From: Methanomassiliicoccales archaeon | Lineage (GTDB): Archaea > Thermoplasmatota > Thermoplasmata > RBG-16-68-12 > SOIM01 | Assembly (NCBI GenBank): GCA_030593885.1 | Contig: JAUVGH010000010.1 | Coordinates: 1-56,601, forward strand | DNA: 56,601 nt | Direction of reading: 5' to 3' | The notes under the pieces: generated by a model | Databases searched by the model: none | What the model saw: only the letters and a program-made list of their open reading frames with translations | Told to the model about the DNA's origin: nothing | Made by a program: the position numbers and the translations under genes | Part shown: positions 11,259 through 50,976 of the stretch, one piece after another | How positions within the stretch are numbered: position 1 is the first letter of the stretch | How the letters are laid out: every line of letters begins with the position of its first letter

Positions 11259-14159
11259 TCAACGCCGTCTTCTGAGGATCATGGGGACTAACACCGCAGC
11301 AATGATGGGCACCAGAAGGACCTCGAACTCAGGTATACTCTCGAAGTAGACCTCGTCGCCGTTCATGTCCCAAAGCCATCCGATGCCCCAGTCATCGGTG
11401 TAAGAATAGACCGAGGTCAGATTCCACTTGGGAGTGGTGTTCGAGGTTATCCATGCCATCCAAGTCCAGGACGACCCGCCATCGGTAGAGTACTTGCCCG
11501 ATATCTGAGAACTGCCGTTTATCCAGAACGCATATACGTCGTCTGCGGGCACTAGAGAAACGGTAACATAAGAACTGTCCGAACCGTCGTCCAGTATCGT
11601 TGTGGAGGACCAGGAACTGGTATACTTGGTGTAGTTGACCGCGCCGGTGAGGCTTGCGTAGATCAGATGGATGTTCCCGGAGCTGTCCACCACCGCCGAG
11701 GGCCCTCCCAGGGCCATGAGCTTGGCATCGCTGACCACCGTCACTTCCGAGCTCCACGAAGTGCTGGAGTCGTCGTAATAGTTCCCTGAAATCACCCCGT
11801 TCCGGTTGTAGACGCAGTACATGTCATCATCTGCCAGAGGAACGATCACTGGACCTGGAACGGTGGCCTGGTCCGTGGAGAGGGCGGTGAAGGGGTCCCA
11901 ATTGGAGACGTCCTCTGGTGAACTGGAACGTGTGACGTTGACGTTGTAACCGGTGTCGTTGTTGACCGAGGAAGCGATCCACACGTGCCCTCCGGCGCTG
12001 ACGGAGATCGAGGTGACTTTGAAGGCCATGCTCGCGTTAGAGATGGAAACCGCTGTCTCTGTCCCCCATGTTATCTGGTTTGTGGAAACAGAGCCCTTCC
12101 TGACATATACCTCGGTGTCCGCAGAATCCTTGGCCCCGACTATGTACACCTGCGAATCGGACGAGTTGAACCAGACGGAAGCGTAATAGATGTCGCTGGC
12201 CACGAACGCGTTATCGTAGCTGTTCCCCCAATCCACACCGTCCGAGCTCCACTCCCAGGTGATGTTGCCGATGGTGGCGTTGTGATAGAAGGCGAAGAAG
12301 TAAGAACCGGTATAGAAGACCTTCCGCTGCATGGAGAGCGCCACATGTGCCCCGATCCCGTCATCCTCCACCAGATATATCGCCCTGGAGCGGGTCTGCC
12401 AATCGGTCAGTTGATGGGACAGGTCCCCCAAGTTGTTCCAGGTCGATGTGACGAAGACTATCTTGGGATTGTCGAGAGTGCCGAGTCTGGCGAGACGCAC
12501 GGATATCTCGATCTCGTCTGCATCGATCTCCGCATCAATGCCTGCAACCACCTCCCATGTGCCGTCCACCAGCATCATCAAAGTCTCCTGCATGATGACG
12601 CCGTACATCCCCCTGATCTCGACAATGGTGTTGGCGTTAACTCCATAGAACGATTCGCCGACGTCGTCGGATGAGTTGGAGTCGATGTAAATCATCAGGT
12701 AGTCTTCTCCAGACACCCTCGATTCGGTTATTGGTGCCGGAGGCGATGGTTGGCCGGGTTCGCCGGGAAGATGCTTGGATTTCATCTGCGGTGCGAAGGT
12801 TCCCTCGAGTATCTCTCCGGTCACTTTCAGGTGGAAGAACGCGTCCAATGTCCCTTCAAGTGCCTCGTGCTCGATCATGTCAACGTTGGCTCCCACGCTG
12901 GTGTCCACAGGATCGGGATTCCCCGAGGTCCAGTCCTCAAAGAAACCATCAATGGCTATGCCTGCAGGTATCTCCTCGATATAGGTTCTTACGACCTCCC
13001 CCCGGATGGTGGACGGTTTATCAGCCACAACGGACTCCACTGTTGCCGTGATCAGTGCCCCCACAGGTGCGTCGGCCAGGTCTGCGGTGATGAATTTCGT
13101 TGTCGTTGTCCCCTCGGCAACCGTGAAGGGTAGCTGAGGCGTCTCAATGGTCGCACCGCCGAGGTCCACGATGCTTATGTCGCTGACGGTGACGTCTGAA
13201 GCCATGGCCGTGAACTCGACCCCCATGATCGTTCCGAGCCGTTTTTCGACGATGCTCCTGAATCTGAACTGCTCCACAAGAAGAGCGCCCGGGTCTTTTC
13301 CCACCGGTACCGAAGAGCATGACTGGCCTCCTTCATGGTCGTTCGCGCAGAAGAGCACTAGGAAGTCCTCCTCGAGGCTCAGCGAGTGTATGGTTGTCTG
13401 GACCTCCATCATCCGGCCGTTCGCCTCAGCTTCGACCCTCTCCAATCCAACAAACGCGGTCCAATTGTACCGATCGTCGCCCAGGAACGCGAACGTTTGA
13501 GCGTTAGCGACTATGTTGTCCCCGCCGTGGACCTGGATAACGAAATCCGCCCCGAAGTTGTCCACTCGATATCCTGTCGTCGTGTCCCCGTCGGAATCGA
13601 TGAAGAAATAGAATGTGTCAAAGCCGTTGATGTCCCCCAGAACGATGCCCACGGCCTGAACGTAGAAGGACAGATGGTTGCGCTCAAGATCGATCGCGTA
13701 GGATCCCACGGTCACGTCAGGTCTCGGGTTGTCGGGAGCGTCCACATACATAGGAACGTCGTCCCAATCCGAGAAATCGCCATCGATAGCGATGGAGGGT
13801 GTGTAAAGGTCATATCCAGGTTCCATAAGGTATATGGATACCACAGGTATGACCAGTAGCCCAAGCAGGATCAGCGCAAGACCGACCCGAAGGTCCTTGT
13901 TCGTGACGACGCCGAGATTGTTCCTGCCGAGAGGTATCCTGGAAAGCCCGTTGGTCAGACCGTTGCCGTTGACAAGTCCGTTGCCGTTTACCAGGCCTGT
14001 GCCGTTCACCCGACCAGTGCCATTGACCAGACCGTTGCCGTTGACGAGCCCGGAACCATTTACAAGGCCGGAACCGTTAGTGAGGCCAACGGTCCTTCTC
14101 CGAGCGTTCCCGTTGGTGAGCCCATTGACCGCGCTCAGAGACTTCGACTCCCGGCTCAT
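11259..14159 (-). CDS. Large surface protein with Asn-Gly repeat tail, single N-terminal helix and PEF-CTERM-like end
   Basis: 966 residues. Residues 11-71 are a low-complexity repeat of about ten G[LR][VT]NG units (GLVNGSGLVNGNGLVNG and so on). A membrane helix follows at about 91-110. Outside are two CBM9/DOMON-like beta-sandwich domains, each opened by the same motif (IAIDGDFSDWDD at about 123; 'GIAIDGFFEDWTS' near 403). The second half is rich in Ser/Thr/Trp strands resembling sialidase-type propeller blades. The end, 'IPEFEVLLVPIIAAVLVPMI' plus RRRR, resembles a PEF-CTERM sorting signal. The repeat tail should lie in the cytoplasm. The start overlaps the upstream small membrane gene as ATGA. 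Substrate and role are unknown. Confidence 0.8.
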   Translation of the reverse strand: MSRESKSLSAVNGLTNGNARRRTVGLTNGSGLVNGSGLVNGNGLVNGTGRVNGTGLVNGNGLVNGNGLTNGLSRIPLGRNNLGVVTNKDLRVGLALILLGLLVIPVVSIYLMEPGYDLYTPSIAIDGDFSDWDDVPMYVDAPDNPRPDVTVGSYAIDLERNHLSFYVQAVGIVLGDINGFDTFYFFIDSDGDTTTGYRVDNFGADFVIQVHGGDNIVANAQTFAFLGDDRYNWTAFVGLERVEAEANGRMMEVQTTIHSLSLEEDFLVLFCANDHEGGQSCSSVPVGKDPGALLVEQFRFRSIVEKRLGTIMGVEFTAMASDVTVSDISIVDLGGATIETPQLPFTVAEGTTTTKFITADLADAPVGALITATVESVVADKPSTIRGEVVRTYIEEIPAGIAIDGFFEDWTSGNPDPVDTSVGANVDMIEHEALEGTLDAFFHLKVTGEILEGTFAPQMKSKHLPGEPGQPSPPAPITESRVSGEDYLMIYIDSNSSDDVGESFYGVNANTIVEIRGMYGVIMQETLMMLVDGTWEVVAGIDAEIDADEIEISVRLARLGTLDNPKIVFVTSTWNNLGDLSHQLTDWQTRSRAIYLVEDDGIGAHVALSMQRKVFYTGSYFFAFYHNATIGNITWEWSSDGVDWGNSYDNAFVASDIYYASVWFNSSDSQVYIVGAKDSADTEVYVRKGSVSTNQITWGTETAVSISNASMAFKVTSISVSAGGHVWIASSVNNDTGYNVNVTRSSSPEDVSNWDPFTALSTDQATVPGPVIVPLADDDMYCVYNRNGVISGNYYDDSSTSWSSEVTVVSDAKLMALGGPSAVVDSSGNIHLIYASLTGAVNYTKYTSSWSSTTILDDGSDSSYVTVSLVPADDVYAFWINGSSQISGKYSTDGGSSWTWMAWITSNTTPKWNLTSVYSYTDDWGIGWLWDMNGDEVYFESIPEFEVLLVPIIAAVLVPMILRRRR
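13947..14129 (-). repeat. In-frame repeat coding for GLVNG/GLTNG units
   Basis: About ten copies of an 18-base unit, with reverse-strand forms such as CCGTTGCCGTTGACAAG. They vary at synonymous sites, so the protein sequence seems to be what is kept. The repeat codes the cytoplasmic tail in front of the membrane helix of the 966-residue protein. Confidence 0.85.
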
Positions 14160-14482
14160 GACGTCTCACCTTCCGCATTGAGCTGTTCCACCTCTTCCGC
14201 TGAAAGGGTGCCGCCGCGAATCGATGCAACGAACAATGCAAATCCAACAAAGAGGATCACAGCGCCGACGAGGGCGTAGAAGACGTTCACGGGGCCGAAC
14301 ACAGTGAATGCGGTGCCCACGACCGGGACGCGCAAGAGGTCGTGAAGATACGATCCCAGGGCGAAGTAGAGTCCTCCCAGCACTATCAGCGTCAAGGACA
14401 GGTAGAAGACTATCCTATCCCTAAGTAAGGACGCCGGGGTTATCCTCTTCTTCTCTTCCTCTTTTGGGACCTCCTCCAACAA
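14156..14482 (-). CDS. Small two-helix membrane protein
   Basis: 108 residues: a charged N terminus (EEVPKEEEKKRITP), two membrane helices (about 25-46 and 65-88) and an acidic tail (LSAEEVEQLNAEGE). Its stop overlaps the start of the 966-residue surface protein as ATGA, so the two are translationally coupled and may act together at the membrane. The family is not recognised. The 128 bases between it and the TPR gene hold no other visible feature. Confidence 0.6.
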   Translation of the reverse strand: MLEEVPKEEEKKRITPASLLRDRIVFYLSLTLIVLGGLYFALGSYLHDLLRVPVVGTAFTVFGPVNVFYALVGAVILFVGFALFVASIRGGTLSAEEVEQLNAEGETS

Positions 14483-14610: not shown

Positions 14611-16797
14611 TTACGAGCTTTTTGCAATCCTGTCCCTTTCCTTCCTTGCCTCAGAAAAATCGGGGTCTATCTCCAATGCGACTTCCAGATACTCCAGTGC
14701 CTTCTTCTTCGACCCTGAGCCAGAGAGCAGCTTGCCCTTCTCGTACCAGTAGTCGGCGCAGTTCTCGTTGGTCGCCAAGGCCATGTCGATGCATCTCAGC
14801 GCATCGCGTGGTTTCTTCATCAAGGAGTACGTAAGGCTCATGCCGTACCATCCGAGGTCCTCGGGGGAGCCGTCCGAAACGACATCCTTGTAGGTCTTGA
14901 TGGCCTCTTTGTAGGACCCCAGTTCTCGGAGGGAATCCGCCTTCATCAGAAGGGCCTTCTTGTCCGCGTCCGGGACCTTCTTGAGCGTTTCCACGACCTG
15001 TCGGTACTTCTTGAGCTCGAAGAGGGACTTGGACTTCTCCACCAGTATGTCAGCTTCGTCCTCCATCGAGTAGGCCTTGTCGAAGGCCGAGAGGGATTCC
15101 GCCGTTCTTCCAGCACATCTGAGAGCCATTCCAAGAGAGAGCCATACCTTCCAGCTCTGAACGCCGTTGTTGACCGCGCTTCTGAGGGACTCGACGGCTC
15201 GAGATGGGTCCCCGGCGCTCATAAGGGCCTGCGCCATCTTGGTCCAAGCGTTCACCTCTTCATCGTTGGTGTCGAGAATCCTGTCGAAACACACAGCTGC
15301 CTCGTTGAACCTCCCGAGTTCGAGCATGAGGTTTCCCTTCTCCTCGAGCGCGTGGATGTTGTTGGGTGACATCAATAGTATATAATCAAGGCATCTGAGT
15401 GCCTCGGAGAAACATATCTGGGCTTCCTCGAAGTTGCCCATGTCTATCATCAGTTCGCCCCTGAAGACCCATGCCTCCTCGAACCCGGGATTGAGGATGA
15501 GCGAGTTGTTGAGAGCGTCCCTCGCCTCCTCCACCATCTCCATCTTCTCAAGCGTCTCGGCCTTGGCGTACCAAGAATGGTCGTAGTTGGGGTTCAGTTC
15601 AAGAGACTCGTTGATCAGCTCCAGGCCTTCCTCGAGACGGCCCTGGTTAGAAAGCGCGTGGCCCTTAGCGTACAAGGCATAGTCGAAGTCGGGTTTTATG
15701 TCCAGCGAACGGTCGTGGAACTGAACGGACTCCTCGTGCCTACCCATCTTGTCCAGCGCGTTGCCGATGTTGTTCCAGGCGATCTCGTAATCAGGGTTCA
15801 CCTCGATGGCCTCGAAGAAGTAAGGTAAGGACTCCTCGTATCTCCCGAGGTTGTACAGGGCGTTGCCCAGGTTGTTCCACAGGACCTCGTCGCCCTTGTC
15901 GATCTCCAGTGCCTTCTCGTAGCAGACAATGGCTTCTTCCAGCCTGTCCATGCCGTGGAAGGTGTACCCCTTGTTGTACCATGCGTGCTTGTATCTGGGG
16001 CTGAGCTCGATGGCCTTGTCGTACGACTCGATGGCCTTGTCGTGGATGCCCAGCATGAAGTAAGTGAATCCCTTGTTGTTCCAAGCCTCTTCGTTCTTGG
16101 GGTCGATCTTGATAGCCTGATCGTACGCGTCGATGGCCTGCTCGTAGCTTTCCATCGCGTACAAGGCATTGCCCATGCCGTTCCAGGCATCCAGGAACTT
16201 GGGCTCGATCCTGGTCGCCCTTCGATATGCCTCCGTGGCCTCCAGGAACCTGTCCACCTGTTCGAGCAGTATCCCCTTTCGGTACCATGCGACGGGATCG
16301 TCGGGATGCTTCTCCGAGATGTTGTCGTAGGCGTCCAGCGCCTTCCTGGTCTTTCCCAGTTGAGCCAGGACCAGACCCATGTCGTACTCGGCAATCCTGT
16401 AGTCCGGATTCAGCTGAAGCGCCTTGGAGTAGCACCTGATGGCCTTGTTGAAGTCCTGAAGATACGAGAACGCGTTCCCCATGTTGTACCAGGCGACCTC
16501 GTAGTTGGGGTCGATCCTAATCGAGCTACGGTAGCATTCAAGGGCCTTGTTGTGATGTCCCAGTGAATCGTACGCCACTCCCATGTTGTTGTAGACGAGT
16601 CTGTCGTCCGTGAGCCCCAGCTTGATCGCTTTCTGGTATTCGACGACTGCTTCTTCGTACCTCCTTTCGTCGCACAGTAGGTTGGCCTGGAAGAACTCCT
16701 TCTCGCCCTTCACCATATCAGGTTTGACCCTCTTCGTGCGGTCAACGCCCTCGATGAGGAGGTTCAGAAGCTGGATGTGGGCCATCGTATCGTTCAT
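14611..16797 (-). CDS. Long tetratricopeptide-repeat (TPR) protein
   Basis: 728 residues, nearly all TPR: I count about 20 consecutive 34-residue units from residue 30 to the end, with the W..G.A......A...Y..A....P pattern (for example 'VAWYNMGNAFSYLQDFNKAI', 'EAWNNKGFTYFMLGIHDKAI'). There is no signal peptide, membrane helix or enzyme domain, so it is a cytoplasmic scaffold whose partners cannot be inferred. The frame starts at ATG 16797. A TTTAAA box centred near 16814 would better fit the second Met at 16785 (MAHIQLL) as a leaderless start. It is divergent from egsA. Confidence 0.9.
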   Translation of the reverse strand: MNDTMAHIQLLNLLIEGVDRTKRVKPDMVKGEKEFFQANLLCDERRYEEAVVEYQKAIKLGLTDDRLVYNNMGVAYDSLGHHNKALECYRSSIRIDPNYEVAWYNMGNAFSYLQDFNKAIRCYSKALQLNPDYRIAEYDMGLVLAQLGKTRKALDAYDNISEKHPDDPVAWYRKGILLEQVDRFLEATEAYRRATRIEPKFLDAWNGMGNALYAMESYEQAIDAYDQAIKIDPKNEEAWNNKGFTYFMLGIHDKAIESYDKAIELSPRYKHAWYNKGYTFHGMDRLEEAIVCYEKALEIDKGDEVLWNNLGNALYNLGRYEESLPYFFEAIEVNPDYEIAWNNIGNALDKMGRHEESVQFHDRSLDIKPDFDYALYAKGHALSNQGRLEEGLELINESLELNPNYDHSWYAKAETLEKMEMVEEARDALNNSLILNPGFEEAWVFRGELMIDMGNFEEAQICFSEALRCLDYILLMSPNNIHALEEKGNLMLELGRFNEAAVCFDRILDTNDEEVNAWTKMAQALMSAGDPSRAVESLRSAVNNGVQSWKVWLSLGMALRCAGRTAESLSAFDKAYSMEDEADILVEKSKSLFELKKYRQVVETLKKVPDADKKALLMKADSLRELGSYKEAIKTYKDVVSDGSPEDLGWYGMSLTYSLMKKPRDALRCIDMALATNENCADYWYEKGKLLSGSGSKKKALEYLEVALEIDPDFSEARKERDRIAKSS

Positions 16798-38332: not shown

Positions 38333-41300
38333 CTAGTATCCGACGTAGACGTACCTCGACGGTTGACCTTCCACAGATATCTGATACGCTTCTCCCTGCT
38401 CAATGAACGGATCGTATATCCCCGCAGGCATTTCGGTCGCATGGAATTTCCACACGCCCACGACAATATAGGCCATCCCCGTAACGGACATCATTATCTC
38501 ACAGTAGAAGTCCAGCGTCCAGACAGCAATAGGTTCCAAAGGAAGCCCCATCGCGTTATGCCCGGCCTGATACTCCACTGAGATTACTCCTATGCTGAAG
38601 GTACTGCCTCCCTCGTTCCCGCCGGCTGTCAGGGGGATCACCATGTAGTACCATTCCGAGGCCAGGGACATCACGCCAACGTCTATCCAGTCTGTTGCAT
38701 TGGGACCCAGCGTGATGATGGGCGTGAGGGCCATCTGGTGGAAGTCCATTCTGCCTTCCGACCTGTAGACCACGTAGCCAGTGCTCCCGATTGCAGCTCT
38801 CCAGTACAGCTTGACGTTGTTCTGGATTACCGTTGCCGTCAGTCCTCTTCTGAAGTTGAGGCTCTCCCCCACTCCCTCATGGTATTTGATCATGGAAGCC
38901 GGACTCCCCACGAATGTGAAGTTCGAAGGCGCCGAAAGGAAGATCTGGAATCCTTCCCTCATACCAAGCATGCCAGATCGAACGACGGGACCTCCCCTGA
39001 TGTGCCTGATCCAAGTGTCGCTGGCGTCCATCCAATCTATGTGCTCCGCGTTCGGTATGGAACTGGCATACCATCCAATGTCGTGTTTCACGATCGGTTC
39101 CAGGGGCAGGGAAAAGGCGTTCAAGCCCGGTTCGAAACCTCTGGTCCACTTCCCGACCGTGTTGCTGGTGATGCTCTTGATGCCCAGGTTGTTGACGGCT
39201 CTCACCGAGTAGTAGTATTCCCTGGGGTTGGGATTTGCGGCACCTAGATCCGTCCAGTCCGTTCGCTGAGGATTCACATCACCTAAGGTGCTGTAGAAAG
39301 ACTGGGAGAAATCGAACCCTCTCTGGTCGGGAGACCTGTAGATCAGGTAATTACTGATGTTCGGTCCTGGTATCGTCCACGACAGACGCACATCGTTCTG
39401 GTCCGCATCGATGCCTAAGATGGGAGGATCCACCGGCTCCGGGACCAAGACGTTCACCAGGACATCAGGAAAAAAGACCGTCGCGCTCGAATTGTCCCAC
39501 TTGGTGTAGTTGACCCTGGCATCGGGATGGATGCCCACGAGGACCAAACCCTCTTTCGATGATGTCACCATGTATTGCACATTCCAGGACTGGTTGATCA
39601 GTATCACATCAACATCCCAATCGAGTATGGTGCTGCCGTCGGGGTTCACGGTGACCACATCTGGCGGTAGGGGATTCGCACTCTCATCCTGGAAGGACCC
39701 CGGAACGTAGTGGATGTATGGCGGCAGCGCGTCCCTTATCATCGGGTTCATTCCTGTTGGGGCCTCCACCTTCCTTCCAGCCACGTTCATGACCTGCCTG
39801 AAGATCTTGATGTAGATGTCGTTCAATGCGTCAGCGGTCGGGGCCGGAAGGTATTCTCCTCCCGTCAAGCTAGCTATCTGGCTCAGCAGTGCACCGTCGG
39901 TGTTGTTGCCAAGGCCGATGGTGAAGATGATTATCCCGTTGTCCGCTGCTCTCTGGGCCTCTTGAAGCGCCGCGGCGTTGTTGGCTCTCCCATCGGTTAT
40001 CAGGATCTGGATGTGAAGGTGGTCCGGGTCTCCATATGATATAAGCTCGTCATTTGCCACCGAGATGCCTGCACCAATGTTCGTCCCTCCCCCCGAACCT
40101 GGGAACGAGTCTATGTCGGCCTTGACCTGAGCGTAGTCGGAGGTAAGATGGTGCCCGTTCACCAGCAACGCGGTACTTGTGAACCTCACGGTCGCCGCCC
40201 TGTCAGGCAGTATCATCATGTCCACGTAGTTCTTGGCAGCAACCAATCGCTGGTAGCTCGGGTCGTTGCCGCTCATGCTTCCGGAGTTGTCGATCACAAA
40301 GACGGTGTCCTGCGGCATCCCAGATACCAGAGGAATGCCTCTCCCGGTTACGTTGAGCTTGATGGTAGTCTCCTGAGGAAGCAGGGGCGAATTCTCGATC
40401 CAGATCGTGTCCGGATCTGCCGTTTTGTTCAGGACCAGGAATGGAGGGACCACCGCAGTCGTTCTGAGAACGACCCTGCCCTTCACATTAGCGTTCAAAG
40501 AAGATACGGCATAAGCACGAACTACCTCTACAGTTCCCGTTCCTGGGTCCGGCGGTATGTGAACATGGACCTTGAGTTGGAACACGTCTCCCCACAACAT
40601 GGCGTCGCTGTCTGGAACGCCGTCGCTGTCATGGTCGACGATCGGGTTGCCCAAACCGTCAAGAAGATCGACCTGCCAGCCCAAGGTTGTCGTGTAAGTG
40701 ATATCAAAGACGTCAGCGCTGCTCCCAGAGTAGTTGAGAGTGACGTTATATTCGACTATCTGACCAACACTCCCCCACTTCGATTCATCCTGCCACATCC
40801 TCGCCGTTTCCGGTGTGAGAGTGGAATCGAAAGACCATCCGGCCGCGGTCGAGGACACATCGTCGAAACCATCGTATCCCCATAAGACCTGGTCCTGCAC
40901 TCTTGCCACGGACCTGTCCTGTGTATGTGCCGATGACCATCCCACCATGTCCACCAGCCTTCCCAAGTCGTCGTAAAGGTAGACGTTGTCTCCACTCACC
41001 GTTCCATCGTCCATGCCGAAATCCGTCGGGAAATCCTCACCTCTCAGGACGAAGTGATTCTTGTCAACATCCATATCCACGGCCGTCATGATCAACTCCG
41101 AATCGACCACCAGCTTCCATCCGTTGGTGTTGATTGTTCCGCCGCCCTTGTAGTAGAGCTCTATGAACCTGTCATTGAGAGAATTGGCGTTGAAGTGCAC
41201 TTCCTTCAGAACGACCTGAGGTCCGGGATGCAGTCCCATGCGGTCGTTCTGCACGCCGAAGGTCGGGGTCGGATCCCTCACCCATTCGCTCTGATAGGCC

Positions 41301-43420
41301 GCACCGTCCCAATATCGGGAGACGCTCTCATCCTTCAAGGGGTCCGGTACAGGGCCCATTTGCCCGAACGAGACCGAGTCCAGTTCGTAGCCCGATGAAT
41401 AATGTAAGCTGACCGTCCCTCCTTCTTCGCTCGCGAAACCCTCTCCAGGGCCAACCGTGTAGAATGAATACTCTCCGGGGGAGAAGGTCGTCTTGCTCCA
41501 GGTCCCCGTTGTCCACTTAGCGACCCCATCCGGAGAGAGGTATATCTCTGAAGACATGAGCAGGAAGTCCCCGTAGTTGAATATCTCTATCTTCTCGCTT
41601 CCGACGGTGTCAAGGTCCTGTATCTCAGTGATGAACAAGTCCAAGTCAAGGGACGGTATCGTTCCGAAGGTCCAGCCGGCCTGTATCGAGGACGCATCGT
41701 CGAAGCCGTCGTAGTCCCATTTTGTGGTATCGGCCACTCTCGTCATGGATTCGCCCTTGTTGTGTGCGGACGACCAACCGACCATGTCCACAAGCCTGTC
41801 CAGCGGGTCGTACAGGTAGACGTTGTCGCCGTTCACCGTTCCGTCGTCCATGTCAAAACCCGATGGAAAACCCATTCCCCTGAGAACCAGCAACCTCTTG
41901 TTCGTGTCCAAGGTCACAGCCGGCAGGACGTACTCTGAATCCACGACCAGCTTCCATCCGTTGGTGCTGATCGATGCTGTTCCGGGATAGAACAGCTCTA
42001 TGAACCTCTCATTGGGTATGTTGGCGTTGAAATACACCTCATTCAAGACGATAGGGGGAGGCTCCAGCCTTCCGGCGCAATCATTCTGTGATCCGAACGT
42101 GGGCGTTTGGTCCCTTACCCATGAATCCGTGTATCCCGTTCCGTTCCAATACCTGCAGACGCTCTCATCTGTCAGTGGGTCCGGTGCCCTTCCCGCTTGC
42201 CCGAACGAGACCGAGTCAAACTCTATGCCCGTGGAATAGTGCAGCGAGACTGCACCGCCCTCAGAGTTCTGGAACGACTCCCCAGGTCCCAGAGAATATA
42301 CCGAATAATCTCCTGGCGAGATCGTCGTCTGGCTCCAGGTCCCTGACCCCCATTGAGTTATACCATCCGGAGTCAGATAGATTTCTGAGTCAGAGACCGT
42401 TCGCAGCCCATGGTTCATCATCTCGACCTTGCCGTTGCCCACCGAACCCGTGTCCTGAACCTCGGTTATCGACAATTTGGTGGTCCTATCGATCAGGAAG
42501 TTCTTGGCATCGATGACTCCAGCCAAGGGGTAGTTGCCTCCAAAGGCGATGACGAGCGGCAAAGAGACGCTGGACCCCATCGGCAGTGTCCCAACCTCCC
42601 ATCCGACCATGCAAGTTATCTCCTCTGGCACTGCGACCACCTGGTTGGTCATCAGAGAGGCGTAGAGCGACTTGTCAGAAGTTGGATCCACCGCACCCTG
42701 TTTTCCGGCCGCGCCTCCGTAGTAGTGGTTCAGGGGCAAATTGGGCTCGGCCGAGGCAAGACCCATCAAAGTGGTTCCTGTGGTGACATCCAGTATAGAG
42801 TAAGTTGCAAGACCGGCGTCCCAGTAGTCAATGTCATCTCCCGGAGTGTCGGCGATCCTCAGCCGGAAGTTCATCCCGACCCTCAGATCGAGGATGTCCT
42901 GCCCGTAGATGTTCTCTATTTCCCACATGATTATTGCCCAATCCTGGTCCTGCTCAGTGTAAGCCCTCTGATAGATCTTGAGATCGTTGGAGACCCTGGT
43001 CACTCCTGTCTGCCTGAATGAGGCGTACGTCTCCTGGACGGCGCCGTTCTCAATGTAGATGTTGGGCTCGTCAATGGTAAAATCTCCCGTTCCAGAACCG
43101 TACCCGTTCGCGACCTCCGTGCTTCCTCCCCCCGAAGGATAGGCGCTGTGGTAGATGGTCAGGAAGCTCTTGTAGACGAAGTGGCTCTGGGTCACCCAGT
43201 TCCAAGCGATGTCGTTGGTGATGACGCCAAAGTCGTTCACACTGAAGTCCACGTTACCCACGCTCAAAGCAAGCCCTGCAGCTTGCGCCGTCGGCAGAAA
43301 AAGGGACCCCGACAGGGTCGTCATCGTGGCCAGGATGATAACTATCGATATTGAGATGGCTTTTGAGGCTTGATCACTTTGATTATATGCTCTTCTGGAT
43401 TCTCCCTCCTCTATGCCCAT
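38333..43420 (-). CDS. Giant surface protein with duplicated lamin-tail modules, VWA and FnIII-like domains
   Basis: 1695 residues. Residues about 20-47 are a signal helix ending PTAQA. Residues about 50-310 are beta-rich. Next is a tandem pair of units of about 277 residues (about 316-592 and 593-869), each with lamin-tail-like strands ('VVLNEVYFNANIPNERFIEL' and 'VVLKEVHFNANSLNDRFIEL'). A VWA domain spans about 1030-1215 with the full MIDAS motif DNSGSMS and 'IQILITDGRAN', then 'FTIGLGNNTDGALLSQIASL'. FnIII-like and two 'LNAFSLPLEP'/'HNAMGLPLEP' beta modules close it; no membrane anchor is seen at the end. The inferred role is adhesion or matrix binding. A TATA-like TTCTTATATC lies near 43509-43518. 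Confidence 0.8.
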   Translation of the reverse strand: MGIEEGESRRAYNQSDQASKAISISIVIILATMTTLSGSLFLPTAQAAGLALSVGNVDFSVNDFGVITNDIAWNWVTQSHFVYKSFLTIYHSAYPSGGGSTEVANGYGSGTGDFTIDEPNIYIENGAVQETYASFRQTGVTRVSNDLKIYQRAYTEQDQDWAIIMWEIENIYGQDILDLRVGMNFRLRIADTPGDDIDYWDAGLATYSILDVTTGTTLMGLASAEPNLPLNHYYGGAAGKQGAVDPTSDKSLYASLMTNQVVAVPEEITCMVGWEVGTLPMGSSVSLPLVIAFGGNYPLAGVIDAKNFLIDRTTKLSITEVQDTGSVGNGKVEMMNHGLRTVSDSEIYLTPDGITQWGSGTWSQTTISPGDYSVYSLGPGESFQNSEGGAVSLHYSTGIEFDSVSFGQAGRAPDPLTDESVCRYWNGTGYTDSWVRDQTPTFGSQNDCAGRLEPPPIVLNEVYFNANIPNERFIELFYPGTASISTNGWKLVVDSEYVLPAVTLDTNKRLLVLRGMGFPSGFDMDDGTVNGDNVYLYDPLDRLVDMVGWSSAHNKGESMTRVADTTKWDYDGFDDASSIQAGWTFGTIPSLDLDLFITEIQDLDTVGSEKIEIFNYGDFLLMSSEIYLSPDGVAKWTTGTWSKTTFSPGEYSFYTVGPGEGFASEEGGTVSLHYSSGYELDSVSFGQMGPVPDPLKDESVSRYWDGAAYQSEWVRDPTPTFGVQNDRMGLHPGPQVVLKEVHFNANSLNDRFIELYYKGGGTINTNGWKLVVDSELIMTAVDMDVDKNHFVLRGEDFPTDFGMDDGTVSGDNVYLYDDLGRLVDMVGWSSAHTQDRSVARVQDQVLWGYDGFDDVSSTAAGWSFDSTLTPETARMWQDESKWGSVGQIVEYNVTLNYSGSSADVFDITYTTTLGWQVDLLDGLGNPIVDHDSDGVPDSDAMLWGDVFQLKVHVHIPPDPGTGTVEVVRAYAVSSLNANVKGRVVLRTTAVVPPFLVLNKTADPDTIWIENSPLLPQETTIKLNVTGRGIPLVSGMPQDTVFVIDNSGSMSGNDPSYQRLVAAKNYVDMMILPDRAATVRFTSTALLVNGHHLTSDYAQVKADIDSFPGSGGGTNIGAGISVANDELISYGDPDHLHIQILITDGRANNAAALQEAQRAADNGIIIFTIGLGNNTDGALLSQIASLTGGEYLPAPTADALNDIYIKIFRQVMNVAGRKVEAPTGMNPMIRDALPPYIHYVPGSFQDESANPLPPDVVTVNPDGSTILDWDVDVILINQSWNVQYMVTSSKEGLVLVGIHPDARVNYTKWDNSSATVFFPDVLVNVLVPEPVDPPILGIDADQNDVRLSWTIPGPNISNYLIYRSPDQRGFDFSQSFYSTLGDVNPQRTDWTDLGAANPNPREYYYSVRAVNNLGIKSITSNTVGKWTRGFEPGLNAFSLPLEPIVKHDIGWYASSIPNAEHIDWMDASDTWIRHIRGGPVVRSGMLGMREGFQIFLSAPSNFTFVGSPASMIKYHEGVGESLNFRRGLTATVIQNNVKLYWRAAIGSTGYVVYRSEGRMDFHQMALTPIITLGPNATDWIDVGVMSLASEWYYMVIPLTAGGNEGGSTFSIGVISVEYQAGHNAMGLPLEPIAVWTLDFYCEIMMSVTGMAYIVVGVWKFHATEMPAGIYDPFIEQGEAYQISVEGQPSRYVYVGY
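40811..42470 (-). repeat. Tandem duplication of about 830 bp inside the giant surface gene
   Basis: Two head-to-tail units, roughly 42470-41641 and 41640-40811. They code for matching modules: 'LSITEVQDTGSVGNGKVEMM' against 'LFITEIQDLDTVGSEKIEIF', and 'GDNVYLYDPLDRLVDMVGWS' against 'GDNVYLYDDLGRLVDMVGWS'. The boundaries are approximate. Confidence 0.75.
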
Positions 43421-46092: not shown

Positions 46093-49000
46093 ATGAACAC
46101 TAAGCGTTTGAGTTGCGTCGTGTCAGTTCTACTTCTGTCGAGTGCCTTCTTTTCTGTCCTTGCTACGGTCCCAGTGAGTGTGAATGCCACCAGCAATCCC
46201 GGCGATGAGAAGGTAATTGAGGCCACTGATGATGGAGTATACTTCACTGTTGGCCAGACCTCATTAACATCTCAGATTCCTGGTGTCGATTCATCTTTGA
46301 AGGAGAATCAGAGATCGATCAGGGGCGACCTCAAGATGAATGCAGTGCCCGTCAACGGACTGAAAAGTGCCCGATTCCCAGACCTTTCTGGCAAGATCGG
46401 TGAAGATGACCCGTCTCCAGCGGGTACAATAGATCCAGAGCCAATGGACGCACCTTTCCTTCCGAACGACGTTCTCGTTTACAATGATATTGTGAACAGC
46501 GAGAAGAACGTCAGCCTGGCCAAGACTTCAAATGGGACCCTGTACGCTGCGTACGATCATGACATTGGAACCGGTCTCAGGGACGTATACGTTTCCAAGT
46601 CGACCGATGGGGGCTCGACATGGGCAAAGAGGGACATTGCCGTGGATGCTGCCGAGGACGAATCTTGTCCTTCCATCGCGGGAGATTACAGCCCGAATTT
46701 CGGTTCAGACATTCTTTATGCTTGGTACAGCAATCCAACTTTTGAATTCGCCTGGTCCCTGGACGGTGATACGTGGTCGATAGAGGATTTCGGGGGCGGG
46801 GAAACCTGGTGGGAGGATGTGAGATGCCCATACGTGGACGTCCGCGGCGATTTCGTGGTCATTGTTTCAGAGGATTTAAGCCCAATCGACGGCAGAGACA
46901 ACTGGCGCATTCTGTACACGTTGGATGGGATGTCATGGACGATGTATTATTGGAATATGTGGCCCGGTGCATGGGTGTATCAACCCAGGGTGTCAATAAT
47001 GGATGACGATGAGATCTTCGTCGTTATGGACGTTTATGACAAATCTGACCCCGATCCCGGCAATTGGTTCCACGACACCGTGATGGCTCATGGCACATTG
47101 ACCAATGATTTTCTGTCTGATAGTTGGGACTCATTCTTGTTTATCACTGGAATCGAGAATCTGGCCCTCACAAGTCCTACCGTTGAAGCCTTCGGCCAGC
47201 GAGTTACCCTGGCCCAGGAAGTCTACAATCCTGGCATAGCCCCCTTGTCCACAAGCCTAATTTACTGCCTGTGGACACCTGATTTCGGCAAGGTTGGAGG
47301 AGCAAATTGGTACCCATGCGAAGACGGTATTGGTTACATTGCCTACGACCTCACGGAGACGAAGAATCAGAAATACCCCTCCTTCTACCAGGAAGACGGC
47401 GAACTTCATTTCTCATGGTTGAATGGAACGGATATCAACTACAGGTTCTCACCCGACGGCGGCTTCGAGTGGCTTACGGGGCCAATGAAGGTAAATGACC
47501 CAGGCTCCAGTACTGTAATGGATGCTTGGCACTCTCCGGACGTGATCTCCGACAAAGGCAGACCGTATATTGCCTGGCACGATACAAGGGGCTCGGATGA
47601 TATCTACTTCCAGACCTTCGAGACCAACCGATGGTATGGGATTCGCACAGACCAGTCCCAACCGGGGTTGCAGGTCCGTGAGGTAGGCGATTCATGGCAT
47701 AGCTCTTCCGCCTACTACTTGTGGGGCGACGGCTCAAGCCATGATGTTGAGGCTCAAAGCAGCTATGAGATTCCTGCGGACACTCGATATTCTTTCAGTC
47801 ACTGGGATGATGGCCAGTTAGTGAATCCCGCCACCGTCACCGTGTCTGATTCAAGTTTCAATATTACTGCACAATATGATCTGGAGTTCTGGTTGGAGAT
47901 GATGGGAGGCACCACTAATCCCCCGACTGGTTGGCGGCAGGCATATACTTGGATCAACCTTTCGGCCTCTCCTCCCGCAGCCCCACCTGGCGGGCAATAC
48001 ATATTCATGGGATGGTCAGGGGACTTCACTGGCATGGATAACCCATGCGTTGACTGCGTCTATATGGATGGTCCAAAGACGATTATTGTATATTGGATGC
48101 TTCAATGGAGCGTAACCATAGACACCATTCCGACCGGGCTTACGATTCAGGTGAACGGAAACAACTATGGCGCTCCGCACACAACCTGGTTCAACGACTC
48201 GGAGATGTATACCATAAATACACCCAGTCCGCAGGGAGGACCTACGAGCAGGTATGTTTGGAGCGATTGGTCCGATTCTGGCCCACAATCTCATAACGTC
48301 TTCGTAATCGCACCCTGGGCCAGCTTCACTGCATCCTTCTTGGCAGATTACCAGATGACAATAGACACAAATCCGACCGGTCTGAAGGTCAAGGTCAACG
48401 GTACCGACTACACGGCCCCGTACACATTCTGGTGTCCTGAAAACACCAGCCTCTTGCTGGAGGCGACCTCACTTCAATATCCAGGCACTCTGGGTGAACG
48501 GTATGCTTGGAGCAACTGGAGCGATGGCGGGAGCCAGATTCATCAACTCAACTGTACCGGCCCAGAGACTATCGTAGCTAATTACATCTTGCAGCGTTCC
48601 GTGAACATAACGACCGGCCCTTCTGGTTTCAACGTAATCGTGGACGGGCAGACGTACGCGACACCTCTGCAGATCTGGTTCAATGATTCTTCAATGCATG
48701 TTATTGAAGCGCTAGGCAGTATTCCTATAGGGGCCAATAATAGGTATAACTTCACTGTTTGGTCCAATTTCTGTCCCAGGGTTTGTTTTTATTGGGCGAA
48801 TGTGAGCGATGATTCTCTCGCTGCCAACTATGGTTTCCAGCACAAAATCACATTCCAGTCCAACTCCCCCGGTACCACGATCGAATTGGACGGATCCCCC
48901 CTAATGCTGCCCTATGTCTTCTGGTGTGATGATGGCTCGTCGCACATCGTGAACGCGCCAGATCCGCAGACGTTCGTTGATACACGGTATATCTTCAACA

Positions 49001-50976
49001 GTTGGAGCGACATGGGAGCGAAGATGCACAACATCAACTGCCTTGCACCATCGATCATCCAGGTCGACTTCGACAAGGAGTACAGGGTCTACATCTACAC
49101 CACTCTGGACGGCGTCGGATCGAACCTCGATGTAATAGTTGGTGTGACAACGTATCCAACCCCGGCGGGGGTTTGGTGGCCCGCGGATACCATGATGGCC
49201 TTGGACACCAACGAGTTCCAGCCTGGTCAGAACCCACCCAGCGGAATGAGGTATAAGTTTGGCGATTGGGACGATTCCATGCTAAGGAGCAGAATGATCA
49301 ACGTCAACACACCCGGATTGGCCTATGTTGCCAACTTCGGGACGCAGTACAAGCTGACATTCGTCGACCCGCACGGCACTCCGATGACCACACCGACTGG
49401 CGACCCTGTCACGGACGGTCTCTACTTCGACATGGGTACTTCAGTGACCATCGCAACGGACGATACGGTGCCTGACACTGCGGACCATAGATGGCGGTTC
49501 GATGGATGGTCAAGCGGAGATCTGGGCGGCTACACGGGCCCACAGATCGATCCGGACATTACAATGAGCGGACCGATAACTCAGACAGTAGTGTGGATTG
49601 ACCAATACATGCTGAGCTTCGTCTCTGCCTATGGGATGCCCATCGCCACCGGCTGGCACGAACAACAGGGCCCCACCGAGTATTGGTATGACATGGGCGA
49701 TGTCGCATTCTTCTTTGTGGAGACTGAGGTTTTCCTAACACCAGGTCAGGATTCGAAGGCCGTGTTTGATAGTTGGGTCGGAGGCACGAATGGAACGACT
49801 ATGAACTCACCTGTCATAGTCACTGCATCTTGGCATCTGGAGCACTTGGTCACGCTTGTTAGCAGCCACGGGACAACTCCACCTTCCACATGGGTTGTGG
49901 AAGGAGAATCTTACGCCCTCACAATCGAGGAGTTCTTGATCTTCGGAGAGTCCAGACATTACTTCTCAAGCTGGACAACTGCCGACACCGGGAACGGAGG
50001 TTATCAAGGAACCAACAGGCAAGTAACACTTACGGTAACTGGACCAATCACCGAGACAGCAGTTTGGGAGACCCAATACCTACTGACAATCGTGACGGCC
50101 CATGGAACGCCCTCAGCAAGCGGCGAGGCAGGGCAGCAAAGCTCCAGCGAGTTCTGGTTCGCGGAAGCCACATCTGCAATTTTCTGGGTGGATGATGAGG
50201 TTTTGATATCGTCTGGTAATGACGAGAAGGTCGTGTTCGACGCTTGGACAGGAGGGATGAATGGTACGACCATGACGGCTCCGCTTACCGTAACTGCCAC
50301 CTGGCATACCGAGTACCTCGTCACCGTTGACAATGGCGGACATGGGACCGAGCCCGCTCCCGAATGGGTGATCGGTGGTGGAACCTACGACCTAGCTATC
50401 GAGAATCTTGTTGAGGACACAGATACGAGATACCGCTTTAGCGGCTGGACGAGCTTGAATGGATACGAAGGACCCGATAATGAGGCCACCTTGACCGTGA
50501 CTTCCCCTATCGCCGAAACCGCGACTTGGATCACAGAATACTCACTTACCATAGTCTCGGTGCACGGAGCCGACAGTATTGGAACCCCACTCGGCGCGGG
50601 ATGGTACGAGGACGGGTCTACAGCGGAAGTCGTTGTCAGTCAATCGGTGACAATACTCGACACCATCTACACCTTTGAGAACTGGGTGGGGACGGTCGCT
50701 GAGCCAAACTCTGCCAGTACTTCACTTGTCATGAATGAGCCCAAACTCATCTACGTGGAATGGTCCTCTCAACCCGTATCCGATGAGCCCGACTCCCAGC
50801 CCCTTGACCTGATCTTGATCCTTTCGATCGTTGTCATTGTGATTGTCATTGCAATCGCTGCAATGTTTCTCATGAAGCGGAGGAAACCGGTCGAAGATGA
50901 GGCTCCGGAAACGGATGCTGAAGAGGACTCTGTTGAGGAATACGATATTGGAGAGTCGGGTGGAGAAGAAGAGTAG
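46093..50976 (+). CDS. Giant membrane-anchored surface protein with two sets of beta repeats
   Basis: 1627 residues. Signal peptide at 1-34 (ending SVNATS). Residues about 120-510 look like a sialidase-type propeller ('VYVSKSTDGGSTWAKRDIAV'). Residues about 560-1040 hold six or so repeats of about 80 residues with 'IDTNPTGLKVKVNGTDYTAP' and 'RYAWSNWSDGGSQIHQLNC', of PEGA/InlB-B type. Residues about 1070-1550 are a second repeat set ('LTIVTAHGTPSASGEAGQQS', 'FDAWTGGMNGTTMTAPLTVT'). A membrane helix at about 1568-1592 is followed by an acidic tail (EDEAPETDAEEDSVEEYD). Many N-x-S/T sites suggest glycosylation. Role inferred as a cell-surface or S-layer-type structure. Confidence 0.82.
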   Translation: MNTKRLSCVVSVLLLSSAFFSVLATVPVSVNATSNPGDEKVIEATDDGVYFTVGQTSLTSQIPGVDSSLKENQRSIRGDLKMNAVPVNGLKSARFPDLSGKIGEDDPSPAGTIDPEPMDAPFLPNDVLVYNDIVNSEKNVSLAKTSNGTLYAAYDHDIGTGLRDVYVSKSTDGGSTWAKRDIAVDAAEDESCPSIAGDYSPNFGSDILYAWYSNPTFEFAWSLDGDTWSIEDFGGGETWWEDVRCPYVDVRGDFVVIVSEDLSPIDGRDNWRILYTLDGMSWTMYYWNMWPGAWVYQPRVSIMDDDEIFVVMDVYDKSDPDPGNWFHDTVMAHGTLTNDFLSDSWDSFLFITGIENLALTSPTVEAFGQRVTLAQEVYNPGIAPLSTSLIYCLWTPDFGKVGGANWYPCEDGIGYIAYDLTETKNQKYPSFYQEDGELHFSWLNGTDINYRFSPDGGFEWLTGPMKVNDPGSSTVMDAWHSPDVISDKGRPYIAWHDTRGSDDIYFQTFETNRWYGIRTDQSQPGLQVREVGDSWHSSSAYYLWGDGSSHDVEAQSSYEIPADTRYSFSHWDDGQLVNPATVTVSDSSFNITAQYDLEFWLEMMGGTTNPPTGWRQAYTWINLSASPPAAPPGGQYIFMGWSGDFTGMDNPCVDCVYMDGPKTIIVYWMLQWSVTIDTIPTGLTIQVNGNNYGAPHTTWFNDSEMYTINTPSPQGGPTSRYVWSDWSDSGPQSHNVFVIAPWASFTASFLADYQMTIDTNPTGLKVKVNGTDYTAPYTFWCPENTSLLLEATSLQYPGTLGERYAWSNWSDGGSQIHQLNCTGPETIVANYILQRSVNITTGPSGFNVIVDGQTYATPLQIWFNDSSMHVIEALGSIPIGANNRYNFTVWSNFCPRVCFYWANVSDDSLAANYGFQHKITFQSNSPGTTIELDGSPLMLPYVFWCDDGSSHIVNAPDPQTFVDTRYIFNSWSDMGAKMHNINCLAPSIIQVDFDKEYRVYIYTTLDGVGSNLDVIVGVTTYPTPAGVWWPADTMMALDTNEFQPGQNPPSGMRYKFGDWDDSMLRSRMINVNTPGLAYVANFGTQYKLTFVDPHGTPMTTPTGDPVTDGLYFDMGTSVTIATDDTVPDTADHRWRFDGWSSGDLGGYTGPQIDPDITMSGPITQTVVWIDQYMLSFVSAYGMPIATGWHEQQGPTEYWYDMGDVAFFFVETEVFLTPGQDSKAVFDSWVGGTNGTTMNSPVIVTASWHLEHLVTLVSSHGTTPPSTWVVEGESYALTIEEFLIFGESRHYFSSWTTADTGNGGYQGTNRQVTLTVTGPITETAVWETQYLLTIVTAHGTPSASGEAGQQSSSEFWFAEATSAIFWVDDEVLISSGNDEKVVFDAWTGGMNGTTMTAPLTVTATWHTEYLVTVDNGGHGTEPAPEWVIGGGTYDLAIENLVEDTDTRYRFSGWTSLNGYEGPDNEATLTVTSPIAETATWITEYSLTIVSVHGADSIGTPLGAGWYEDGSTAEVVVSQSVTILDTIYTFENWVGTVAEPNSASTSLVMNEPKLIYVEWSSQPVSDEPDSQPLDLILILSIVVIVIVIAIAAMFLMKRRKPVEDEAPETDAEEDSVEEYDIGESGGEEE

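Follow-up and report, generated by a model that had tools for sequence, protein, structure and literature searches.

The juxtamembrane linkers of bitopic receptors normally drift in sequence, and ordinary disordered linkers drift in composition. Elastin-like VPGXG sequences consist of short, length-variable, uncharged or basic repeats in which a beta-branched residue is joined to a turn dipeptide and Gly, and the tract described here resembles them in these respects. The dipeptide Asn-Gly has a preference for type I' turns and hairpins (PMC7714341); when it lies in an unstructured chain, it deamidates faster than any other dipeptide, its half-life being a matter of days (PMC4682632).

An array of this dipeptide was found in the window, i.e., the whole analysed stretch of 56,601 nucleotides of contig JAUVGH010000010.1 of a Methanomassiliicoccales archaeon. 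Here the most deamidation-prone dipeptide is repeated along a tract for which disorder is predicted, and yet it is nearly invariant. Literature searches for NG/TNG repeats, repeat surface proteins of Thermoplasmata and archaeal juxtamembrane low-complexity tracts returned nothing relevant, and no describing paper or domain family was found for the array; the protein family that carries it is apparently undescribed and lineage-wide.

The array gene and its product

The array gene belongs to a trio of genes on the minus strand of the window, with the following features:

14611-16797, minus strand: TPR protein of 728 aa, first gene of the syntenic trio
14156-14482, minus strand: upstream gene of 108 aa with two hydrophobic stretches, adjoining the array gene in the relatives compared
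11259-14159, minus strand: whole array gene, 966 aa, its start ATG overlapping the stop of the upstream gene (ATGA)
13947-14126, minus strand: Asn-Gly array, ORF residues 12-71, 13 NG, mostly GLVNGx or GLTNGx units
13896-13946, minus strand: basic spacer between array and membrane helix, 17 residues, LSRIPLGRNNLGVVTNK
13824-13895, minus strand: predicted N-terminal transmembrane helix, about residues 88-111 (hydropathy; AlphaFold2 helix 88-111)
12435-13788, minus strand: ectodomain with two CBM9-like (IDGxFxDW) beta-sandwiches and a beta-domain between them (profile A2; all-beta AlphaFold2 model)
11403-12329, minus strand: distal ectodomain, modelled as a beta-propeller (AlphaFold2 and Foldseek)
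11259-11336, minus strand: C-terminal IPEF motif, hydrophobic helix and RRRR end, PEF-CTERM-like, a possible archaeosortase signal

The trio of TPR, 108-aa and array genes is syntenic in the genomes G001, G002, G003, G004, G005, G010 and G016, the TPR gene being only partly held in the last, and the identity of the array protein across these relatives goes down to about 38%. Elsewhere in the window, a secreted-looking protein of 1695 aa with lamin-tail and VWA domains is encoded at 38333-43420, and a protein of 1627 aa with a signal-like N-terminus, a C-terminal membrane helix and an acidic tail, matching no Pfam family, at 46093-50976.

The N-terminus of the array protein reads MSRESKSLSAVNGLTNGNARRRTVGLTNGSGLVNGSGLVNGNGLVNGTGRVNGTGLVNGNGLVNGNGLTNGLSRIPLGRNNLG (window ORF 11259-14159, minus strand); about 11 residues precede the array, and the protein is almost without a cytoplasmic domain of its own. 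NG dipeptides were found at residues 12, 16, 28, 34, 40, 42, 46, 52, 58, 60, 64, 66 and 70, and the membrane-proximal end of the array is GLVNGNGLTNG. The main run, defined by a spacing of no more than 6, comprises 11 NG at spacings of 6, 6, 2 or 4, while the longest comparable run in 5000 shuffles of the same protein was 3; the repeat reported by the initial annotation is thus real. Its description as a strict five- to six-residue unit is approximate, the units being of 6 residues with spacings of 4 and 2 residues mixed in. According to Tandem Repeats Finder, this is the sole array in the window (period 18 bp, matches 76%).

Only hydropathy and AlphaFold2 were used to locate membrane helices. 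A helix does follow the array, as had been noted, and AlphaFold2 places a second hydrophobic helix at the C-terminus (residues 949-965). For residues 1-80, including the array, the pLDDT of about 25 predicts disorder; the array model of a paralogue contains some low-confidence strands with pLDDT of 50-60.

A Pfam search of the 966-aa protein gave no match at E 0.1. The first CBM9-like sandwich defines the family 'chassis', that is, the membrane helix with a CBM9-like outer domain, and chassis profile A2 matches the window protein over profile positions 6-351 with E 7.8e-82, a value that is partly circular since the protein belongs to the seed alignment. No solved structure was retrieved by the sequence search of the ectodomain profile against the PDB, and a PDB sequence search gave low-complexity matches only, the best being pyridoxal kinase. 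For the distal ectodomain, the nearest structures found by Foldseek were Photorhabdus PLL/PHL lectins and sialidases (E 2e-9, 13% identity), a likeness at the level of fold only; this lectin/sialidase-like propeller at 11403-12329 was modelled despite zero matches to Pfam models.

The C-terminus of the window protein contains a PEF motif, a hydrophobic helix and a basic tail, IPEFEVLLVPIIAAVLVPMILRRRR, and none of the NCBIfam sorting (CTERM) models scored above cut-off against the protein. In the family, PE[FYL] was found in 61 of 79 complete C-termini and the terminal hydrophobic helix in 66 of 79. Among 27 good genomes, 17 contain both archaeosortase TIGR04178 and the chassis, 8 contain neither, and two are discordant (1 + 1), so that the two agree in 25/27 (Fisher p 3e-5, uncorrected for relatedness). 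The archaeosortase gene was not found in the 86%-complete genome of the window organism (G000) and is present in its congeners G001 and G002. The PEF-CTERM-like family ends, with the window protein left unmatched by the curated CTERM models, may represent an undescribed sorting class.

Domains ahead of the array in 43 paralogues include zinc ribbons (23/43), TPR (19), HhH (9) and KaiC-like ATPase matches (4). Since intracellular zinc-ribbon, TPR and HhH domains precede the array in paralogues and the spacer is basic, the cytoplasmic side proposed for this tract of a surface protein is supported. The intracellular N-terminal domains, the CBM9-like or lectin-like ectodomain, the PE[FYL] C-termini and the co-occurrence with archaeosortase likewise agree with a probable N-inside, ectodomain-outside orientation. 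Taken together, there is strong reason to regard the array as facing the cytoplasm and disordered.

Distribution, anatomy and constraint of the array

A search of the G000 genome with the array of a paralogue revealed seven ORFs with arrays and no further array-bearing ORF, and a search with the ectodomain profile retrieved the same 7 ORFs as full-length chassis proteins, the array being present in 7/7. Among 61 relatives, largely represented by MAGs, arrays were matched in 51 and the chassis in 50. At least 3 NG lie directly before the helix in 72 of the 78 chassis proteins that were fetched by ectodomain and had enough upstream sequence, a proportion that may be somewhat inflated because profile A2 was seeded with array-bearing members; among close and class relatives (Thermoplasmata), 57/58 chassis bear the array. 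Within the class, almost every chassis protein has the array, and almost no other protein does. The array is not essential to every chassis, as the six that lack it have in its place linkers that are acidic, rich in Pro/Glu, or short and basic.

A scan of 84,980 GTDB species with array peptides gave 31 loci, all in records labelled archaea and nearly all in Thermoplasmata, Methanomassiliicoccales or Euryarchaeota; short fixed peptides were used, and distant dialects may escape such a scan. Several genomes from beyond the class but within the phylum also have arrays ahead of this chassis, e.g., (GLTNGN)n, GMVNGRGMVNGAG-type runs and (GLVNGRS)n. The highest count in one genome is 23 array matches (G060, 5.2 Mb). 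The single-contig genomes G060 and G050 of the same class (5.2 and 3.2 Mb; loci L109-L128) contain 23 and 10 array matches, respectively, with the common dialect LTNG. No relative was found in the viral contigs searched. Confinement of the repeat to one gene, or its disruption or variation in frame in close relatives, which the initial annotation had named as speaking against its reading, was not found: the array is present in frame in 7 genes of its own genome, and it occurs in most of the class genomes examined as well as elsewhere in the phylum. One family member (L252, G051 C18) is broken by a single in-frame TAG and is possibly a pseudogene or an assembly error.

Across 129 arrays, the copy number ranges from 4 to 34 NG (median 13), and the unit consensus is [L/R/I/M]-[T/V/I]-Asn-Gly, with T, V or I directly before NG in about 89% and L, R, I or M usually one step earlier. 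In recognisable units, Asn is retained in 97% and Gly in 99.6%, and Asp replaces Asn in 6 of about 1450 units. The most frequent NG spacing is 4 (828), followed by 6 (297) and 2 (118), and then by 11, 8, 7 and 10; spacings are even in 90%. Arrays consist of 27% Gly and 20% Asn, with about 11% Lys and Arg, about 1% Asp and Glu, and almost no aromatic residues; the term 'uncharged' therefore suits the window copy and not the family. The last NG is separated from the membrane helix by a median of 14 residues (interquartile range 12-17), the spacer carrying a mean of 4.1 K/R vs. 1 D/E, and the cap NGxGxxNG terminates 110 of 153 arrays. The composition of the array is constrained and its length variable, and the gap between its end and the membrane helix is nearly fixed.

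The unit dialect is kept among orthologues (cosine similarity 0.93), while that of paralogues is 0.56 across genomes and 0.52-0.58 within G000, G004 and G005, where two paralogues resemble each other no more when they come from one genome than when they come from different ones. In these three genomes, the dialect is gene-specific and not genome-specific. Paralogues of G060 and G050 reach 0.91-0.94, forming an expanded lineage with one dialect.

Units of the window array mix synonymous codons (GGG, GGT, GGC and GGA for Gly; GTA, GTC and GTG for Val), and the mean Gly-codon heterozygosity is 0.67 in arrays vs. 0.71 outside the arrays in these genes. Comparison of the window gene with its orthologue in G002 over 75 aligned codons of the array region revealed 0 amino-acid and 10 silent codon changes, while the 891 codons outside the array contain 93 amino-acid and 150 silent changes. 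The constraint is not absolute, since 7 amino-acid vs. 8 silent changes were found in the array region relative to G001. With silent sites near saturation and Asn and Gly almost invariant, selection acts on the protein level, in agreement with what had been suggested from the silent differences between units. Array length does vary between relatives, as anticipated: the G002 array has grown in frame and exceeds that of the window gene by 36 residues, and between the congeneric orthologues L194 (G038), with 28 NG in an almost pure RTNG run, and L245 (G051), with 3 membrane-proximal NG, a recent expansion or contraction has taken place.

Possible functions of the array

Strict composition, free length, a near-fixed membrane end and exclusivity to one family suggest that the chemistry of the array matters, and not only its length; accordingly, the array is read here as a composition-dependent tether with low-affinity motifs. 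The proteins would be ordered as cytoplasmic part, NG array, basic spacer, transmembrane helix, CBM9-like ectodomain and C-terminal helix. Each [L/R/I/M]-[T/V/I]-Asn-Gly unit might form a short turn motif, and the array as a whole could serve as a multivalent, low-affinity docking tract at the inner face of the membrane, concentrating or positioning the fused zinc-ribbon and TPR modules while leaving them flexible. In the window protein, the array would position the TPR protein of its own operon instead of a fused module; the 728-aa TPR protein may act in trans in place of the domains that paralogues have fused in cis ahead of the array. The length-tolerant, composition-constrained disordered tether is well supported, and the docking by NG motifs is inferred; the combination is proposed tentatively, as a reading that could well prove right. 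Against it stand the other linkers of a few family members, the amino-acid changes in the array region relative to G001, the low-confidence strands in the model of a paralogue, and the gene-specific dialect in G000, G004 and G005, which weakens the case for a single partner reading exact units.

The array could also be a dedicated intracellular recognition or sorting tag, common to a whole class of archaeal surface proteins, whose repeated [T/V/I]-Asn-Gly turn would be read at the inner face of the membrane by a cognate cytoplasmic factor; in each cell, this factor would organise different receptor- or lectin-like proteins, from several to tens of them. We regard such a tag as possible but doubtful.

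A plain entropic spacer, i.e., a soluble, uncharged, protease-tolerant filler that holds cytoplasmic modules off the membrane and changes its length by slippage, agrees with the free variation of length among congeners, the mixed NG spacings, the predicted disorder and the unrelated linkers of some chassis. However, it explains poorly the composition constraint, namely, the 97% and 99.6% retention of Asn and Gly, the T, V or I before NG and the near-saturated silent sites, nor does it account for the exclusivity to one family, the preferred end motif and the near-fixed distance to the membrane; moreover, with only about 11 residues before its array, the window copy has no fused module to hold off. 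These arguments make a pure spacer unlikely.

Homotypic association of the arrays of different paralogues, packing by Asn-Gly beta-turns into a cross-beta or condensate-like submembrane layer, would draw on the preference of Asn-Gly for type I' turns and hairpins (PMC7714341), the beta-branched residue before NG, the 90% of even spacings, the many paralogues per cell and the low-confidence strands of one model. It is nevertheless improbable, as the window array is modelled as disordered (pLDDT about 25), aromatic residues are almost absent, spacings of 4, 6, 7 and 11 do not fit one solenoid, and paralogues of one genome do not have a common dialect, except for the expanded G050/G060 lineage. 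Since the dialect is conserved in orthologues and differs between paralogues, a single self-assembling lattice is not claimed. A beta-solenoid is likewise unsupported, the NG spacings being mixed and AlphaFold2 giving no confident solenoid. N-glycosylation of NGS/NGT units was rejected: most units of the family are NGL or NGR, and the tract is placed in the cytoplasm.

Very different N-terminal modules ahead of one conserved chassis and the in-frame block expansion in G002 could be expected of a recombination or slippage hinge, in which repetitive DNA joins new cytoplasmic modules to the common transmembrane helix and ectodomain and the protein repeat itself is nearly functionless. With silent sites near saturation, however, DNA copies are too unlike for frequent recombination while the amino acids are held; the dialect is retained by orthologues (0.93), and the array by syntenic orthologues of the window gene down to 38% identity, which leaves this mechanism little credence. 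A deamidation timer, by which exposed Asn-Gly would turn to Asp/isoAsp over days and the acidified, formerly neutral or basic tract would mark the age of the protein, is very improbable. In its favour, unstructured Asn-Gly deamidates fastest, with a half-life of days (PMC4682632), and Asp rarely substitutes for Asn (6 of about 1450 units); the isoaspartate-repair family PCMT is uninformative here, being matched in 61/61 genomes, with arrays or not, by a model that also catches other methyltransferases.

Significance and comparison with known systems

The family couples cytoplasmic zinc-ribbon and TPR modules to carbohydrate-binding-like ectodomains in poorly known archaea. Were the array a recognition tag, it would open a way to study how the cell surface of such archaea is organised from within; were it no more than a tether, it would be one of the rare disordered linkers whose composition is tightly constrained.

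Among the known systems, substrates of archaeosortases with PEF-CTERM share with the family the C-terminal [IV]PEF, the hydrophobic helix, the basic end and the co-occurrence with TIGR04178, but this likeness concerns the end of the protein opposite to the array, and the window protein lacks a curated CTERM match. With CBM9-like domains, the family shares the IDGxFxDW beta-sandwich directly outside the membrane; 1 of 43 members matches Pfam CBM9_1 (PF06452), whereas the other 42/43 are too diverged for Pfam. The hexapeptide left-handed beta-helix has the same six-residue period and, as in part of the family, an aliphatic residue, but spacings of 4, 6, 7, 8 and 11 in the arrays, the absence of regular 18-residue coils and the disordered model set them apart. 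Compared with elastin-like VPGXG repeats, the array has Asn-Gly for Pro-Gly and spacings of 4, 6 and 7 residues instead of a fixed pentad, and it is intracellular and membrane-tethered, so that a likeness without implied homology is meant. The disordered juxtamembrane linkers of bitopic receptors are, like the array, cytoplasmic, adjacent to a single membrane helix, predicted to be disordered, basic near the membrane and variable in length; the array differs from them in that a single strict motif is repeated in it and conserved throughout a class.
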